A stretch of 64,000 nucleotides of DNA from Promethearchaeota archaeon (GTDB taxonomy: Archaea > Asgardarchaeota > Lokiarchaeia > Sigyniarchaeales > SOKP01): positions 1 through 64,000 of the forward strand of contig RDOA01000013.1 of the NCBI GenBank assembly GCA_011364925.1, read 5' to 3'. The translations under genes were made by a program, and so were the position numbers. Below are positions 1,082-38,503 of the stretch, in pieces. Numbering within the stretch: position 1 is the stretch's first letter; the number at the start of each line of letters is the position of its first letter. The notes beneath the pieces are model-generated. The model was not told the DNA's origin. It was given only the letters and a program-made list of their open reading frames with translations, and did no database searches.

Positions 1082-2419
1082 ATGACTGAAGTTTTTATCT
1101 CTGATACCAAAAAAGGTTTAACTAAGGCTGTAAACGAGATTTTTTCAAATCTTGAAGAAACAGGATCCATTTTAAAAGAGTCCAAAGAAGTTTACATTAA
1201 AGTGAATGGAATTGATTTTAAAAAGCATTCATACACCTCTCCAGAAGTATTAAAAGAAGTTATCAGATACTGTGTTGATAAGGGAGCAAAAATCTATGTT
1301 ATGGAAAATTCTACTCAAGCCAATATGACCAGAATTGTGTTTGAAATAACAGGGTATAGGCAGATATGCGAAGAGTTAGGTGCTAATATCATATATTTAG
1401 ATGAACAAGAAACTGAGAATTTTGAGTTTAACGGAAAACCTTCCATATCGGACGATCCAAAAGAGGGTTATATTCTGAAAAATTTCCGATTACCTAAGAC
1501 AATAGTGGATATAATAAAAAATCGTAATGCTGTTACTTACATTAACTTACCAAAACTCAAAACTCATTCAATGGCAAGAGTTACTCTTGGTATTAAAAAC
1601 CAATGGGGCTTTCCTCAACATGCTGATAGATCAATAGATCATAACTATAATTTACATTCAAAACTCGTTGATGTCTATGAATATATAAAACCTGATATTA
1701 CGATTATAGATGGAACTGAAGGTACAATCAATGGACATTATCCCCCTACGGCATGGGAGGATAAATTAGTGATTCCATTCAATATTTTAATCGCTGGAAG
1801 GGATACTCTTTCGGTTGATGTTGTGGGGGCGCGTATCTTTGGAATGGATATAGCTGAGGTTCCTCACTTAAAAATTGCTAGTCAAAGAGGATTAGGTGAG
1901 GGAGACATAAGCAAAATTAAGGTAATCGGCAAAAATTTAGAGGATTACAAAGAGAAATATGACTGGAATCTCCCTCAGATCTTTCCCGATAATGTAAAAA
2001 TTGTTAGGGGTAAGAAGCTTCTATGTATTGAAGGCTGTCAGAATAACACATTAGTCACATTACAGGTTTTCGCTAATGACTACAAAGAGAGATTTAAAGG
2101 TGGGTGGTTTCTAATTATAGGTAAAGGACATGATGATGATTTAGTAGAAAAATTAGAAACTGAAGGATATAAAAAAGGTCTAGTAGCTGGTTATTGCGCT
2201 ATCGAAGAAGTTGGAGAAAAACTAAGAGATGCTTTTGGAAAGAGGAAAGTCTTCTTTTCAGGAAATTGTAACAATTTAGCTGAAACTGTAAGAGCAATAC
2301 TTAAATTATCAGGAATGACTGTATTTGATCTTGTCGGAAATGCGCTAACAAATGAGAAACTAATGGATTTAATCGATCTAGCTAATAAAAACAATAGTAC
2401 AGCACTAACACCGCTGTGA
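1082..2419 (+). CDS. DUF362 domain protein
   Basis: A 445-residue protein starting at an ATG preceded by an AT-rich stretch. The segment YINLPKLKTHSMARVTLGIK and the following WGFPQHADRS are the signature of the DUF362 family, and TIIDGTEG plus the AGRDTLSVDVVGARIFGMD block complete the domain (about residues 20-285). DUF362 proteins are often linked to iron-sulfur ferredoxins, but no CxxCxxC cluster is present; only scattered cysteines occur (for example CIEGC near residue 318). The C-terminal third, about residues 290-440, looks like an extra alpha/beta domain. Molecular function is unknown for the family. It is transcribed alone, divergently from the PadR-like gene. Confidence 0.8.
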   Translation: MTEVFISDTKKGLTKAVNEIFSNLEETGSILKESKEVYIKVNGIDFKKHSYTSPEVLKEVIRYCVDKGAKIYVMENSTQANMTRIVFEITGYRQICEELGANIIYLDEQETENFEFNGKPSISDDPKEGYILKNFRLPKTIVDIIKNRNAVTYINLPKLKTHSMARVTLGIKNQWGFPQHADRSIDHNYNLHSKLVDVYEYIKPDITIIDGTEGTINGHYPPTAWEDKLVIPFNILIAGRDTLSVDVVGARIFGMDIAEVPHLKIASQRGLGEGDISKIKVIGKNLEDYKEKYDWNLPQIFPDNVKIVRGKKLLCIEGCQNNTLVTLQVFANDYKERFKGGWFLIIGKGHDDDLVEKLETEGYKKGLVAGYCAIEEVGEKLRDAFGKRKVFFSGNCNNLAETVRAILKLSGMTVFDLVGNALTNEKLMDLIDLANKNNSTALTPL

Positions 2420-2602: not shown

Positions 2603-4084
2603 GTGAGAATATTGGAAGAAAACGAAAAATCTTTAACTCCCGAAGAAATTGAAAAACAAAAGAAGATTGTTGAAGACCTCTATAAGAAAGAAAAAGAAGA
2701 AAGAGAGAACTATTTAAAAAGTTTCGAGGAAGAACGAAAAAGGTCGTTTGAAGAAAGCAAAGCTATGATTTCTTCTCTAATCTCTGAAAAAAGTTTCATG
2801 AGAGAAAAACAACGAGAACGGGATTTAGAAAGGATGGAAATAAAACCTGAATTAGAAAAAATCGGCGAAACTATTGAGAAATCTGTCAGTGAAAAAGCAT
2901 TTATGATTGAAAAACATAAAGAAGAAGAGCAGATAAGAAAAGATATAAAACCAGACATCAAAGGGGTAGGAGAAGTAATTAGTAAAATTATAGACGATAA
3001 AGCGTTCCTAATAGAGAAGAGAAAGGAATCAGATGCACAAAGATCAAAATTAAAACCAGATATTGAGAGTACGGGGCAAGCAATTAGTAATAACGTCAAT
3101 ACAAAAGCTTTCTTAATTGAAAAGAAGAAGGAAAGTACTTCAAGTTTACGTGAATTAAAACCAGAAATGCAAACTGCTAGTGAAGCGATTAGCAAATCAA
3201 TAGAGGAGAAATCCTTTTTAAGAGAAAAGCAACGACAAAGCGATCTCGAAAGAATGAAGATAAAACCAGATTTTATGAAAACAGGAGACGCAATCAAGAA
3301 TGTTGTTGCTGAAAAAGCATTTAGAATTGAGAAAAGAAAAGAATTAGAAGTGAAAAAATCACTATTACACCCTGACATAGCGGGAAGAGGCGAAGCTATT
3401 AAATCAGCTATTGACGAAAAAGCTTTTAGAATTGATTTACAAAAAGATAAAGAGAGACAGATAAAAGATTTACATCCAGATATTGAACAAGCAGGAGAAA
3501 GTATTTCAAAAGCTATAAGTGAAAAAGCATTCATGAGAGAAACACAAAGAGAAAAGGATTTCAAACGAATGGAAATGAAACCGGACTTTTCAACGACTAG
3601 CGATGCTATTAGCTCTACCGTTGCTGAAAAAGCATTTAGAATGGAAAAACAACGCGAAATTGACGAGAGAAAAAAGTATATAAAACCCGATTTTGAAAAA
3701 ACAGCCGAAGTAATTAATCCTTCAATACAAGAAAAATCTTTTCTCCGAGATCAGCAAAGAGATAGTGATTCTAAAAGAATGGAAATTAAGCCAGATTTAG
3801 AGAAAGCAAGCCAAGCGATAAAACCTTCTATTGATGAAAAAGCGTTCAGAATTGAAAAACAAAAGGAAATGGATAAACAAAGAATGGAGATTAAACCAGA
3901 AATCGAAAAATTTAGTGAAGCGATCGAAAAAACCATTGGAGAAAAGGCTTTCATGATGGAAAAGCAACGAGAAAGGGATTTGGAAAGAATGGAACTTAAG
4001 CCCGATATAAAAGGTATTGGTTCTAAAATCGAAAGAGATATTGAGAAAATTGAAAAAAAGAAGAAAGACGACTATTCTGAATAG
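2603..4084 (+). CDS. Highly charged protein of twelve exact 35-residue helical repeats
   Basis: A 493-residue protein starting at GTG 2603 (TTG at 2612 is an alternative). It has no signal peptide and no membrane segment. Residues 1-61 are a charged helical leader. Residues 62-481 are twelve consecutive repeats of exactly 35 residues, and a 12-residue lysine-rich tail follows. Each unit reads roughly EKaFriEKqrexdxxrmeiKPDiexxxeaIxxxix: a charged helix of about 17 residues, an invariant proline followed by an acidic residue at position 22, then a shorter helix. Repeats differ in sequence but never in length, so the spacing is under selection. It could form an elongated rod or a helical-hairpin solenoid. 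A TATA-like tttaaaaa lies about 25 bp upstream. I do not recognise a characterised family. Confidence 0.85.
   Translation: MRILEENEKSLTPEEIEKQKKIVEDLYKKEKEERENYLKSFEEERKRSFEESKAMISSLISEKSFMREKQRERDLERMEIKPELEKIGETIEKSVSEKAFMIEKHKEEEQIRKDIKPDIKGVGEVISKIIDDKAFLIEKRKESDAQRSKLKPDIESTGQAISNNVNTKAFLIEKKKESTSSLRELKPEMQTASEAISKSIEEKSFLREKQRQSDLERMKIKPDFMKTGDAIKNVVAEKAFRIEKRKELEVKKSLLHPDIAGRGEAIKSAIDEKAFRIDLQKDKERQIKDLHPDIEQAGESISKAISEKAFMRETQREKDFKRMEMKPDFSTTSDAISSTVAEKAFRMEKQREIDERKKYIKPDFEKTAEVINPSIQEKSFLRDQQRDSDSKRMEIKPDLEKASQAIKPSIDEKAFRIEKQKEMDKQRMEIKPEIEKFSEAIEKTIGEKAFMMEKQRERDLERMELKPDIKGIGSKIERDIEKIEKKKKDDYSE
2786..4045 (+). repeat. Twelve tandem 105-bp coding repeats
   Basis: Twelve 105-bp units inside the gene at 2603-4084, each coding 35 residues. 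Anchors are (D/E/T)K(A/S)F at the start of every unit and (K/H)P(D/E) at positions 20-22. The units are diverged at DNA level, with changes spread over codon positions, so this is an old, selected repeat array rather than a recent slippage product. No insertion or deletion interrupts the register over 1,260 bp. Confidence 0.9.
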
Positions 4085-4097
4085 AGGTTAGAATCTT

Positions 4098-4601
4098 CTA
4101 AATGTAATTACTAAATTTGATTAACTCATTTAAATCTACATTTTCTAATCTTTTTTTATATTGTAAAAATGAAGGATCAATATTACCATTAAAGTTTTTG
4201 ATTGCTGGTTCAAATTTGTAATAGAAATCTTCCATAACTTGATGTAAAATTACTCTTTCCGCTTGTAGGTTTGTTTTCTTTGAGATGCCAATAACAGTGA
4301 GTCTTCCTTTTCTCTCGTACAAAATTCTGCTTTCTCTAAAATTTACTTCTTGGATTTCATCGTCTATAGAATCTGGCTTTATTTCGTTCATAAATAAATT
4401 AAATGCATTCAAGAATCCACTTATTAAATCTTCGTGAGTTGATAATTTCATGTTATTTGTGTATTTTTTACTTAATAGGAGAGAACCAGTTAAATTGTCT
4501 AAAAAATAAATTGCATGAAACCGATTATTACTGGTTTCAAATTCCCCTAGATTAAATCCATACCACTTCTTGTAATTATTCACAGACCACTTATATGACA
4601 T
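4098..4601 (-). CDS. Longin/roadblock-like domain protein
   Basis: A 167-residue protein from the ATG at 4601; a TTG at 4652 would add 17 residues, but ATG gives a cleaner start. After a short strand-rich N-terminus, HAIYFLDNLTGSLLLSKKY, HEDLISGFLNAFNLFMNEIK, IQEVNFRESRILYERKG, RLTVIGISKK and a long helix AERVILHQVMEDFYYKFEP follow in order. This beta-beta-alpha-beta-beta-alpha pattern, with SGFL in the first helix, is the one seen in many small longin-like proteins of Asgard archaea thought to bind small GTPases. It is convergent with the repeat protein (13-bp gap). Fold assignment is by pattern; the partner is unknown. Confidence 0.6.
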   Translation of the reverse strand: MSYKWSVNNYKKWYGFNLGEFETSNNRFHAIYFLDNLTGSLLLSKKYTNNMKLSTHEDLISGFLNAFNLFMNEIKPDSIDDEIQEVNFRESRILYERKGRLTVIGISKKTNLQAERVILHQVMEDFYYKFEPAIKNFNGNIDPSFLQYKKRLENVDLNELIKFSNYI

Positions 4602-4781
4602 GTTCTTGCTTTTTATAAACCTAATTATACTACTATTAGAACATGAACTCAAAATCGCTTTAAAATGTAAATATTATCTTAGTGACACAATGAAATTATA
4701 AGTTTTTACAACAACACAAAAAAAACTAAAAATTAAAAATAAAAACATTTTATTATTAGACATATCACAGTTTAATTTTAG

Positions 4782-5255
4782 ATGAACATGGCTATAAACA
4801 ATAACAACCTAAAACAAAAAAATAAAATTTCAATAGGCAAAATTCTTTCAAGAGCAGATTTTAAATCTACTATTTTCCCAGATGAAGTTAAAAACGAAAT
4901 CAACGATGCTCCCTACTATTTATTAATTTTCATCTCTCGTGAAGATTCCATTAAAATTAGCTGCTTTCCTGCCCATAATCGTAATATTAAGAAAATTTTA
5001 ATAAAGTTGATTGAATTTTCACCAGATCTCGTTAAGGGTATTTCCACTGTGTTAAACGATCTAAACTTAAGCAGAGATATCCTCCATACAACTGGAATCT
5101 GTTATGAGCTAGAAAATTGCTTCTATGAGACATATTTATTAGGAGATTCATTGAATTCTGGGGATCTATCATTAGAAGAGATTAAAAATAAATTTCTGGC
5201 AATCGAGAAAATCGTCAATGTAGTCATTGAAGACATCCCTGTCCACAAAAAATAA
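4782..5255 (+). CDS. Hypothetical protein, possible ACT-like fold
   Basis: A 157-residue soluble protein with ATG at 4782 (a second ATG at 4788). From about residue 45 it alternates strand and helix: YYLLIFISREDSIKISCFPA, then NIKKILIKLIEFSPDLVKGI, then DILHTTGICYELENCFYETY, then a helix LEEIKNKFLAIEKIVNVVIE. That beta-alpha-beta-beta-alpha order resembles an ACT/ferredoxin-like regulatory domain, but no ligand motif is visible and I would not assign a function. It contains five cysteines without a metal-binding arrangement. The gene is divergent from the longin-like gene at 4098-4601, so both promoters lie in the very AT-rich 4602-4781 spacer. Confidence 0.6.
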   Translation: MNMAINNNNLKQKNKISIGKILSRADFKSTIFPDEVKNEINDAPYYLLIFISREDSIKISCFPAHNRNIKKILIKLIEFSPDLVKGISTVLNDLNLSRDILHTTGICYELENCFYETYLLGDSLNSGDLSLEEIKNKFLAIEKIVNVVIEDIPVHKK

Positions 5256-6450: not shown

Positions 6451-6459
6451 TTGATACTT

Positions 6460-8160
6460 ATGACGGAAGAAATTATTAGACGAACTACAAGCATTTGTCC
6501 TGAATGCTTACAACCTATCCCAGCAGAAATTTATGTAGATCCGGAAACGAATTGGGTCATGATGCGGAAAGACTGTGAAGAACATGGACATTTCAAAGAT
6601 AAACTTTCAATTGATCCAGAAGAGTATATATGGGGTGAAAGTTTTACAGACGAAATAGGATCTACCATAGGTCATACTACGCAACCGGAGTCTGTTAATT
6701 CTGGAATAAAAGAGTGTAACGAAGGTTGCCCATATGATTGTGGTCTCTGTGAAAATCATAAAAGTGCTCCCAATATATGTCTTATCGACATTACAAATCG
6801 ATGTAATTTAACCTGTCCAATTTGTTTCGCGAACGCAAGTGCAAAAGGGTATGTAGTTGAACCTACATTCGATCAGATTGTGCAAATAATGGAACACTTC
6901 AGATCAATGAAACCAGTTCCGGCTGTTATGCTTCAGATCTCTGGTGGGGAACCGACAGTGAGAGACGATCTCCCAGACATCGTTCGCAAAGGAAAAGAAC
7001 TCGGATTCACAGAAGTAATGGTCACAACTAATGGTGTAAGATTTGCTAAGTCGATTGACTTTTTAAAACAATGCATGGATGCAGGAATGGATGCTATATA
7101 TTTACAATTCGATTCGACTGATGATCCAGAAGTTTGGAAAAAAATACGTGGCGTTAATCTATGGCCTCTAAAGAAGCGGGTTATTGAAAATTGCCGGAAA
7201 ATCGGATTTTACGGGACCATGTTAGTTCCTGTTATTGCCAAGGGCGTTAATGATCAACAAGTCGGTAAAATAATGGATTATGCTAAGGATAATAGTGATG
7301 TGGTTTCCGGTGTAATTTTCCAACCAGTTTCTCTTTGTGGACGTATTAGCTTCGAAGAACTTATGGATTTAAGATATACTACTTCTGATTTGAAAGCCGC
7401 AATTAATAAACATACAAATAATGCCATTCATAGGTTCTATCCAATCGCAACAACTGCAAAAATGACTCGTTTGTTAGCATGGTTCGACGACATGCCAGAA
7501 TTTGGAATGACAAGTCATAAAGACTGTGGTTTTGCAACTATTATGATAATCAATAGTAAAGACGAGTGGGAATCAATCGAAGAATATTTTGATACAGAAG
7601 GGCTTATAAGATGGTCAAACAAAGTTTATGACATGGTACAGGGAAGAGAAATTCCAAAACCTACTGGCTTCTTAAAGGGTGTAAACTTAGAAGATTTTGG
7701 AGCAATCGCCAATACTGTTGGCAAATTCATTGACGAAATGACTGATTTAGGATACCGACAAATGATGAAAGCCTACTATTTTGCGGGAGCAGTTAAATAT
7801 GTAAAGCATCCAGAAAAAATCCTAACAAGTAAAACTTATCAAGGTTTCGCACGTCTTATTGCCTCTCCTAACTTAGCAAGCGCTGCTAACTTTTTACACA
7901 CAAAAAATTTAATGATTAGTGCAATGCACTTTCAAGACGCTTACAACTTCGATTTAGACAGAGTTTGTCGATGCTTGGTTCATTATGGGGTAGTAGATCC
8001 AGAGGATAACACGAAAACCTTGGAAGTTCCCTTCTGTGCTATGAACACGCTGCACAGGGAAAGGCTAGAACTAGCCAACGCAATCCGGGGACAGGAGGCA
8101 AAGAAAGCTGAAGTTATCCAAGCAGAAATTAAAGAACTGCTTGAAACTGTAAAAGAATAA
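6460..8160 (+). CDS. tes: Radical SAM protein, tetraether lipid synthase (Tes)-like
   Basis: A 566-residue protein from ATG 6460 (a TTG three codons upstream is less likely). Order of motifs, numbered from the ATG: an N-terminal CPECL (C13, C16) with a CEEHG nearby; CNEGCPYDCGLCENHK (C86, C90, C94, C97); the radical SAM cluster CNLTCPICFA (C115-x3-C119-x2-C122); and the SAM-contact motif SGGEPT at 161-166. The pre-cluster CxxxC...CxxC set plus the CPECL head is the arrangement I know from the MJ0619/Tes family, which joins archaeol tails into tetraether lipids. Length also fits. Family membership is strong. Use for tetraether synthesis in this organism is inferred; related radical SAM lipid enzymes share much of this architecture. 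Confidence 0.75.
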   Translation: MTEEIIRRTTSICPECLQPIPAEIYVDPETNWVMMRKDCEEHGHFKDKLSIDPEEYIWGESFTDEIGSTIGHTTQPESVNSGIKECNEGCPYDCGLCENHKSAPNICLIDITNRCNLTCPICFANASAKGYVVEPTFDQIVQIMEHFRSMKPVPAVMLQISGGEPTVRDDLPDIVRKGKELGFTEVMVTTNGVRFAKSIDFLKQCMDAGMDAIYLQFDSTDDPEVWKKIRGVNLWPLKKRVIENCRKIGFYGTMLVPVIAKGVNDQQVGKIMDYAKDNSDVVSGVIFQPVSLCGRISFEELMDLRYTTSDLKAAINKHTNNAIHRFYPIATTAKMTRLLAWFDDMPEFGMTSHKDCGFATIMIINSKDEWESIEEYFDTEGLIRWSNKVYDMVQGREIPKPTGFLKGVNLEDFGAIANTVGKFIDEMTDLGYRQMMKAYYFAGAVKYVKHPEKILTSKTYQGFARLIASPNLASAANFLHTKNLMISAMHFQDAYNFDLDRVCRCLVHYGVVDPEDNTKTLEVPFCAMNTLHRERLELANAIRGQEAKKAEVIQAEIKELLETVKE

Positions 8161-8973: not shown

Positions 8974-9537
8974 GTGCCAGCAGAAAGTATGTCTACTGAA
9001 GTAAAGGAATATGTTTTCAAAATAACTATTTTAGGTCAAAGTGCTGTTGGAAAAACTTCACTGATTAATCAGTTTGTAGAAAATTCGTTCCAAGAAGATT
9101 ATAAACCTACGCTAGGGGCTAATATAATCCGAAAAGATGTAAACATAGATAAGGTGAATGCTAAGGTGCGGTTAATAATGTGGGATCTTGCTGGTCAAGA
9201 AAAGTATAATGTCATTCGTAGTATGTACTTCCAAGGATGCGTTGGGAGTTTGCTGGTATATGATGTTACTCGTCATGAGAGTTTCTCAGCGATTGAATCT
9301 AAATGGTTAAAAGATTTTAAGAATTATGTGAAAAAAGAGGGAGCGTATATCTTAATTGGCAATAAAATCGATTTAGACTCGCAGCGAGTTGTCACCACAG
9401 TAGAAGGCGAGAAACTCGCGGAGCAAATCGGAGCAAGTGCTTTTATCGAGACGAGTGCTAAATTAGGAAAAAATGTTGAGGAAGCGTTTAAGAACCTAGT
9501 TTACCAAATTTTAAGAAATTATGGAGAAGAAGTTTAA
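8974..9537 (+). CDS. Ras/Rab-type small GTPase
   Basis: A 187-residue protein from GTG 8974 (an ATG at 8989 gives 182). All nucleotide-binding motifs are present: G1 GQSAVGKTS (21-29), the switch I threonine in YKPTLGAN, G3 WDLAGQE with the catalytic-position glutamine, G4 NKID, and G5 ETSAK. The C-terminus (LRNYGEEV) has no CaaX or CC lipidation signal, as is usual for archaeal members. It is closest in style to arc-Rab/Ras proteins of Asgard archaea. It follows a V4R-like gene by 82 bp on the same strand and may be cotranscribed with it. The cargo or pathway cannot be told from sequence. Confidence 0.93.
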   Translation: MPAESMSTEVKEYVFKITILGQSAVGKTSLINQFVENSFQEDYKPTLGANIIRKDVNIDKVNAKVRLIMWDLAGQEKYNVIRSMYFQGCVGSLLVYDVTRHESFSAIESKWLKDFKNYVKKEGAYILIGNKIDLDSQRVVTTVEGEKLAEQIGASAFIETSAKLGKNVEEAFKNLVYQILRNYGEEV

Positions 9538-21120: not shown

Positions 21121-21645
21121 ATGACCGTTGATTCTAACTATATTATAAAAATTTGCCTTCTCGGAGAAGCAAATGTCGGAAAAACCTCTTTAGTGTATCG
21201 TTATATTGAAAACAAGTTTAGGGGGAATTATAAAAGTACCTTGGGGGTAAACTTATTAAAGAAAGATATGCACTTGGAGGAGTATGGAAACGTATCTGCG
21301 CAAATTTGGGATCTTGGAGGCCAAGAAAGTTTTCGAAGCCTTCGAAAGCTATATCTAGAAGGTGCAAATGGAGCTTTAATAATATATGATTGTACTAATA
21401 GAAGTAGTTTTGAGAAACTCGAGGACTGGATAAACGACTTCAAGGATGCAAGGGGAGATGAGCCTTTACTACTAATCGGAAACAAAACCGATTTGATAGA
21501 CACTATAAAAGTTCAAGAAAGCGAAGGTATCGACCTTGCGAAAAAATTTAACATGAAATTCGTTCCTACTTCCGCTAAGACGGGTTCAAATGTTGAAGAC
21601 GCTTTTATCGGAATCATTAAAAAAGTGTTGGAAAAGAAAGTATGA
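21121..21645 (+). CDS. Ras/Rab-type small GTPase
   Basis: A 174-residue protein with a complete motif set: G1 GEANVGKTS (15-23), switch I threonine in YKSTLGVN, G3 WDLGGQES (glutamine present), G4 NKTD, and G5 TSAK. Segment ALIIYDCTNRSSFEKLEDWI is typical Rab/Ras helix 3. The C-terminus is KKVLEKKV, with no lipidation cysteine. It is separated by about 135 bp from the gene upstream, and tbp follows about 180 bp downstream. Confidence 0.93.
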   Translation: MTVDSNYIIKICLLGEANVGKTSLVYRYIENKFRGNYKSTLGVNLLKKDMHLEEYGNVSAQIWDLGGQESFRSLRKLYLEGANGALIIYDCTNRSSFEKLEDWINDFKDARGDEPLLLIGNKTDLIDTIKVQESEGIDLAKKFNMKFVPTSAKTGSNVEDAFIGIIKKVLEKKV

Positions 21646-23469: not shown

Positions 23470-24018
23470 TTATTGATCTTTATATTTCTCGTAAAGATTT
23501 TTAATGATAGCTTGGAATGCTTCATACACGCCGCTTCCCGTTTTTGCGCTAGTTTTATAGTACCCTAGAAAATGTCTTTTATCAACTATTTCCTTTATCT
23601 TTTCACTTTCGATGGAATGTTCGCTAATTAGATCGATCTTATTGCCGAATAATATAATAGGAATATTTCCACAATACTTTTTAATATCTTCGTGCCAATT
23701 CAAGATATGATTAAAACTCTTCTCAAGTTCATTTGGTGCGTGTGAAAAAACTATAATAGCAGCTTTACTACCCTTGTAAAATGTAGGTCTCATAAATGAA
23801 AATTCTGCTTGGCCAGCAATATCCCAAAAAAATAATTTGACTGTGTTTCCTTCAATTTTTTCGTCGTATTTAGAGAATTGTGCTCCTAACGTTTTAATAT
23901 ACTCCTTTTTAAAACTTCCTTTAGTATATTTTTTAATTAAGGATGTTTTACCTACACCACCGTCTCCAATTACAGTAATTTTGAATACAAAATCCTTCCG
24001 TTCGTCCTCATCACTCAT
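23470..24018 (-). CDS. Ras/Rab-type small GTPase
   Basis: A 182-residue protein with G1 GDGGVGKTS, switch I threonine in YIKTLGAQ, G3 WDIAGQAEF, G4 NKID and G5 TSAK. After G3 it has FSFMRPTFYKGSKAAIIVFS. VFSHAPNELEKSF replaces the common YDVTxxxSF, an unusual helix 3 entry. The C-terminus (KNLYEKYKDQ) lacks a lipid site. It is the first gene of the run with the thioredoxin-like and V4R genes, 29 bp upstream of the former. Confidence 0.92.
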   Translation of the reverse strand: MSDEDERKDFVFKITVIGDGGVGKTSLIKKYTKGSFKKEYIKTLGAQFSKYDEKIEGNTVKLFFWDIAGQAEFSFMRPTFYKGSKAAIIVFSHAPNELEKSFNHILNWHEDIKKYCGNIPIILFGNKIDLISEHSIESEKIKEIVDKRHFLGYYKTSAKTGSGVYEAFQAIIKNLYEKYKDQ

Positions 24019-37972: not shown

Positions 37973-38503
37973 ATGTACGACGCTACTTTTAAGATCATCA
38001 TTTTTGGAGATGCTGGTTGTGGAAAGACAACTCTAACTCAAAGATTTTTAACCAACTTATTTGTATCTGACCAAACAATGACAATTGGAGTCGATTTTGA
38101 AGTTAAAAGCCTTTCAGTTGACAACCAAAAAGTAAAGCTGCAAATTTGGGATTTTGGGGGAGAAGAAAGATTCAGATTTTTACTTCCGACTTACGTAAGG
38201 GGGGCGCGTGGTGGGTTATTTTTATACGATATTACAAACTATTCATCGATCGCTCATATAGACGATTGGTTAAGTGTTATAAGGAAAGAAATTAGAGCTG
38301 AAGATATTTTTCCTATAATCGTAGTTGGTGGTAAGGCAGATCTAGTAGAAAATAGAGAAGTATCCTCCGCGGATGGAATAAAAATAGCGAAATCGAGAAA
38401 TGTTAATGGATTTATTGAGACAAGCTCCAAAACTGGAGAGAATGTAGATAAAGCTTTTGAAGCATTAACAAAGCTCATGCTTGACCAATTCTCACCTCCA
38501 TAA
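37973..38503 (+). CDS. Small GTPase with altered switch II and base-specificity motifs
   Basis: A 176-residue Ras-fold protein. G1 is GDAGCGKTT (12-20), and switch I threonine lies in QTMTIGVDF. G3 is WDFGGEERF, with glutamate 64 where the catalytic glutamine normally sits. G4 is GGKAD (119-123), lacking the asparagine of NKxD. G5 is TSSKTG. The C-terminus, LDQFSPP, has no lipid site. Loss of both key residues predicts slow hydrolysis or changed nucleotide preference. I believe similar GGE forms recur in Lokiarchaeal GTPases, so this may be a subfamily trait rather than decay. Confidence 0.88.
   Translation: MYDATFKIIIFGDAGCGKTTLTQRFLTNLFVSDQTMTIGVDFEVKSLSVDNQKVKLQIWDFGGEERFRFLLPTYVRGARGGLFLYDITNYSSIAHIDDWLSVIRKEIRAEDIFPIIVVGGKADLVENREVSSADGIKIAKSRNVNGFIETSSKTGENVDKAFEALTKLMLDQFSPP

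Follow-up and report, generated by a model that had tools for sequence, protein, structure and literature searches.

A gene of a Lokiarchaeal genome encodes a protein in which a 35-residue unit occurs twelve times in tandem, and raises the questions of what such a string does and what holds its unit to so strict a length. The gene lies in the window, by which we mean the whole analyzed stretch of 64,000 nucleotides, and is present in a single copy in that genome. An earlier note, made from the DNA letters, had read the product as an extended rod or a helical-hairpin solenoid with one proline hinge per unit. Asgard archaea have actin filaments but, to our knowledge, few proteins that bind along such filaments or set their length have been described in them. 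A literature search revealed no paper on this repeat protein, and by sequence comparison it is a new, previously unclassified and lineage-specific repeat family centred on Lokiarchaeia.

Organization of the repeat gene

The gene and its product are organized as follows.
2603-4084, plus strand: open reading frame of the repeat gene, GTG start, 493 amino acids
2603-2785, plus strand: head of 61 residues, conserved and helical (homologue search, AF2)
2786-4045, plus strand: twelve tandem 35-residue units, unit k starting at 2786+105(k-1)
2843-2851, plus strand: KPE at positions 20-22 within unit 1; from here a (K/H)P(D/E) site recurs every 105 bases, twelve in all
4046-4084, plus strand: charged 12-residue tail KIEKKKKDDYSE and stop codon (open reading frame sequence)

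The reading frame bears out twelve diverged units of exactly 35 residues with no insertion, the register of the first unit being a conventional choice. Self-identity of the protein is 0.376 at lag 35 versus roughly 0.05-0.14 at lags that are not multiples of 35, and mean pairwise identity of the units is 43% in protein and 58% in DNA, too low for the array to have expanded recently in this genome. The (K/H)P(D/E) site at unit positions 20-22 described in the earlier note was found in all twelve units, and K2, F4, P21 and I30 are invariant across them. Charged residues make up 47% of the protein, near-neutral overall (117 basic versus 115 acidic). GTG rather than ATG is the apparent start in nearly all orthologues of the family (f1) to which the genome belongs, including that at 2603.

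Conservation of the array and of its unit length

The repeat protein was found in most genomes of f1, with about 4 to 13 units per complete protein and 12 in most of genus g1. A unit profile built from 412 unique units of relatives in f1 (about 430 units in all) is dominated by K2 (96%), I30 (95%) and F4 (92%). The gene is under purifying selection: in comparisons among seven 12-unit relatives, and of the window with the relative L002, dN/dS was about 0.07-0.2 for most pairs and 0.32 for one close pair. Each window unit finds its best match in the unit of the same number for 12/12 units in L002 and L003, and mostly also in L008 and L009. Judged from these matches the order of units is conserved across the genus; the array is old, and its units evolve by descent.

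Two genera, g2 and g7, have no repeat gene at the locus, and no homologue was found elsewhere in their genomes. The syntenic place is taken by an unrelated protein of ~255 residues that has no confident Pfam match:
L067, 5148-5924
L068, 4298-5077
L069, 4467-5231
L070, 932-1705

Spacing equals 35 almost without exception among the about 430 units of f1, the deviation being a 32-residue unit in five proteins of genus g8, and repeats are 37 residues long in sister family f2 and ~40 in f4. The 35-residue constraint thus belongs to f1 and not to the whole lineage. That the periodicity is selected, as had been proposed, holds within f1. Relatives in which register or length is not kept had been named as evidence against the earlier reading, and such evidence is in part at hand: the length is near-absolute in f1, the g8 variants apart, and is a different one in the two sister families.

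The proline is far less constant than the length. It is kept in 99% of units in g1, 76% in g8, and 48% and 47% in the sister genera g6 and g3, and in L023 it is absent from 11/11 units, which retain the spacing of 35 and carry glycines near the same place. A mandatory proline hinge is contradicted by L023 and by about half of the g3 and g6 units, and the length is set by something other than such a hinge. The fixed repeat length here persists without the residue that seems to define it. The units of the L023 array (L023:1483-2856, genus g8), all lacking P21, are nearly identical to one another, which suggests recent homogenisation or expansion.

Predicted structure

Structure prediction with AF2 gave low confidence for both inputs: pLDDT 63.9 and pTM 0.19 for the full 12-unit protein with 29 sequences, and pLDDT 66.8 and pTM 0.19 for five units with an 82-row in-register alignment. 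The five-unit model contains exactly one helix of 30-31 residues per unit, separated by four-residue breaks at K-P-D. The predicted helix begins at D22 of one unit and ends near L19 of the following one, so that P21 would mark the start of a helix and not, as the earlier note had it, the divide between a 17-residue helix and a shorter one. The breaks fall at (K/H)P(D/E) in most units and not at unit 1; a helix is predicted over residues 13-115, most of the head reaching a pLDDT of about 90. No packing between units is predicted in the monomer models, and Foldseek found no PDB match for either of them, a result that carries no meaning at such low model confidence. An extended architecture with one predicted helix per unit is the best fit, and the hairpin solenoid is disfavoured by the single helix and the lack of packing.

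A hydrophobic stripe (I23, I30, I34, A3 and I6) makes half of each unit an amphipathic helix. As to the continuous heptad periodicity of left-handed coiled coils such as tropomyosin or spectrin-type rods, the picture is mixed: in the helical range the hydrophobicity of the unit profile peaks at 35/9 = 3.89 (0.234, versus 0.104 at 3.5), and inside one helix the hydrophobic moment is larger at 3.5. A hendecad pattern in the amphipathic half was considered and dropped, as the periodogram gave it no support.

Models of this kind would also be obtained for an oligomeric rod, in which helices pair between chains as a bundle or a segmented coiled coil, or for a generic scaffold whose F4/K2 surface docks a soluble partner with no lattice involved. 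A single helix with its conserved stripe in every unit, together with the conserved helix of the head, would suit either, and an unpacked monomer is what is expected if packing is intermolecular. There is in addition a weak profile match (E 3e-4 to 0.01) to designed single-chain antiparallel coiled coils such as PDB 8qad, which share long Lys/Glu-rich tandem helices with the repeat protein; 8qad is, however, a de novo design matched by composition, and a heptad periodicity is not clear here. The main periodicity of 3.89 instead of 3.5 may speak against the rod, and a free string of docking helices has no need of exact 35-residue spacing. We regard this explanation as possible but doubtful.

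Comparison with known repeat families

The view that the repeat stands outside the named families was upheld: no acceptable match was obtained in Pfam, NCBIfam or PHROG and no fitting family in PDB, and the Pfam models of TPR, HEAT, LRR and spectrin repeats were not among the matches (window protein, with families shown for a 29-member alignment). Matches to PHROG and NCBIfam entries, YdaS and sigma factors were weak, the Pfam and NCBIfam ones lying far below their cut-offs, and were rejected. Entericidin, UBA_SIK3 and Phage_L5_gp82, matched in Pfam by relatives, are unrelated families that vary from member to member, and were put down to the adding up of weak matches over the repeats.

The best PDB sequence match was the designed protein dPPR10 (PDB 6een; phmmer E 5e-5), which brings in a PPR-like helical-hairpin solenoid, possibly binding RNA. 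Both have a 35-residue unit with K-P-D at its boundary. The match was nevertheless gone once KPD was replaced and was reached by 5/100 column-permuted decoys that keep KPD, while no Pfam PPR model matched the repeat protein. PPR units are two antiparallel helices stacked as a solenoid, whereas one long helix per unit is predicted here, and in our reading of the alignment charged residues occupy the positions of the PPR second-helix core. We consider this kinship scarcely credible.

The closest parallel in organization is offered by the simple repeats of nebulin, which are helical units of ~35-40 residues, about 5.5 nm apart and binding one actin each (PMC7109182, PMC9140763), and vary in copy number (PMC4126377, PMC7109182, PMC9140763). 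The Lokiarchaeal protein resembles them in its tandem units of ~35 residues, mainly helical by prediction, in its variable copy number, in one acidic-x-x-aromatic motif per unit and in a unit contour close to the strand repeat of actin. Present at unit positions 1-4 in more than 90% of units, the motif bears a loose resemblance to the SDxxYK of nebulin; among 436 units the strict SDxxYK does not occur (0/436) and the relaxed S[DE]xx[FY][KR] occurs in 23. The Nebulin model PF00880 gave no match at the repeat locus up to E 10 in ten genomes, nor did an approximate nebulin consensus when searched against PDB. The Lokiarchaeal protein differs from nebulin in having no SDxxYK, Pfam match, super-repeat order, SH3 or LIM domains.

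Gene neighbourhood, the head and a possible membrane role

The neighbours of the repeat gene in the window are the following.
1082-2419, plus strand: DUF362 protein (PF04015), upstream neighbour, syntenic across f1
4098-4652, minus strand: convergent neighbour, weakly longin-like, adjoining the repeat gene across f1
4782-5255, plus strand: 157-amino-acid protein of unknown family, conserved neighbour
6451-8160, plus strand: radical-SAM enzyme kept in the vicinity of the repeat gene; it is matched best by tetraether lipid synthase Tes, slightly below the Tes cut-off

Across f1 the repeat gene keeps its place between the DUF362 gene and the convergent gene, and the Tes-like gene lies a few genes downstream, with intervening genes on both strands. 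Among orthologues of the convergent neighbour 9/21 match Fuz_longin_1 (best E 0.0012), and nearly all of the Asgard genomes tested contain weak relatives of the 4098-4652 product (about 22-35% identity). The window has frequent genes for Ras-like small GTPases: one at 8974-9537 is confirmed by Pfam, and those at 21121-21645, 23470-24018 and 37973-38503 were read from the sequence.

A profile covering the head and unit 1 detected stand-alone head homologues of ~65 residues in two distant Asgard families, f10 (L098, L099, L100 and L104) and f17 (L101, L102, L105 and L106), and in one f4 genome (L103). It is thus possible that the head is older than the repeats. The small head gene of f17 is flanked by genes for myo-inositol-phosphate synthase and a Tes-like radical-SAM enzyme. 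The presence of a Tes-like gene near both the repeat gene in f1 and the head gene in f17 hints weakly at a link to the membrane.

Such a link would accord with a membrane or lipid scaffold, in which amphipathic helices punctuated by proline rest along the surface of the membrane, as do apolipoproteins or repeats of the alpha-synuclein type, and shape or protect membranes. The amphipathic helix with its hydrophobic stripe in half of each unit fits this explanation, and both apolipoprotein A-I (E 0.013) and A-IV (E 0.039) were matched in PDB, below threshold; the likeness lies in proline-punctuated amphipathic helices of high charge. Exchangeable apolipoproteins are built of 22/11-residue units, whereas the period here is 35, with no 22-residue peak, and the proline is dispensable. 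The stripe is moreover narrow in a unit that is otherwise strongly charged, most helices carry a negative net charge or none, the hydrophobic moment is a modest 0.24-0.45 (on an index which an apoA-I peptide fails too), and the f1 genes between the repeat gene and the Tes-like gene use both strands. On balance a membrane scaffold appears unlikely.

The same high charge, near-neutral net charge and low-confidence fold would be found in a disorder-type stress protectant of the LEA or hydrophilin kind that becomes helical on drying or crowding. The near-invariant F4, I30 and K2 and the strict unit length point to specific contacts instead, and we judge a protectant very improbable.

Proposed mode of action

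The explanation that we tentatively favour, as a possible rather than a probable one, is that of an extended string with many binding sites, which would attach side-on to some regular partner, the Lokiactin filament being the preferred candidate. The protein would join an old helical head to an array, peculiar to the lineage, of units with one helix each. A 35-residue unit would consist of a helix of ~31 residues and a break of ~4 residues, usually proline-capped, and would display one copy of a conserved surface (K2, A3, F4, R/K10, E11 and I30) instead of packing into a globular solenoid. Units might then bind side-on, each to one subunit of the partner, in the way of nebulin and actin. Side-binding, the actin partner and any ruler role are what we infer from these features.

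In favour of this explanation are the exact spacing throughout f1, kept even by the proline-free L023, the low dN/dS, the unit-by-unit correspondence between relatives and the single helix predicted per unit. A unit number varying from about 4 to 13 is as expected of a multi-site binder. Actin genes are present in 12/12 genomes tested, the window's own included; against an actin partner, the g2 and g7 genomes have actins without a repeat gene at the locus. Lokiactin rises by 27.9 Angstrom per subunit (PMC9834061). The contour of one unit, made up of a helix of about 46 Angstrom and a break of at most about 13 Angstrom, brackets the strand repeat of 2 x 27.9 = 55.8 Angstrom (5.6 nm), a numerical coincidence that is weak because 35-residue periods are common to many proteins. 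Units of 37 or ~40 residues in the sister families, the lack of strict SDxxYK and of a Nebulin model match, and the low AF2 confidence count against this explanation. A stricter version, in which the protein would be a convergent prokaryotic counterpart of nebulin, with each unit on one Lokiactin subunit and the unit number setting or marking a stretch of filament, seems to us distinctly improbable.

The repeat string together with its perhaps older head provides a defined candidate for cytoskeletal or membrane organisation in relatives of eukaryotes.
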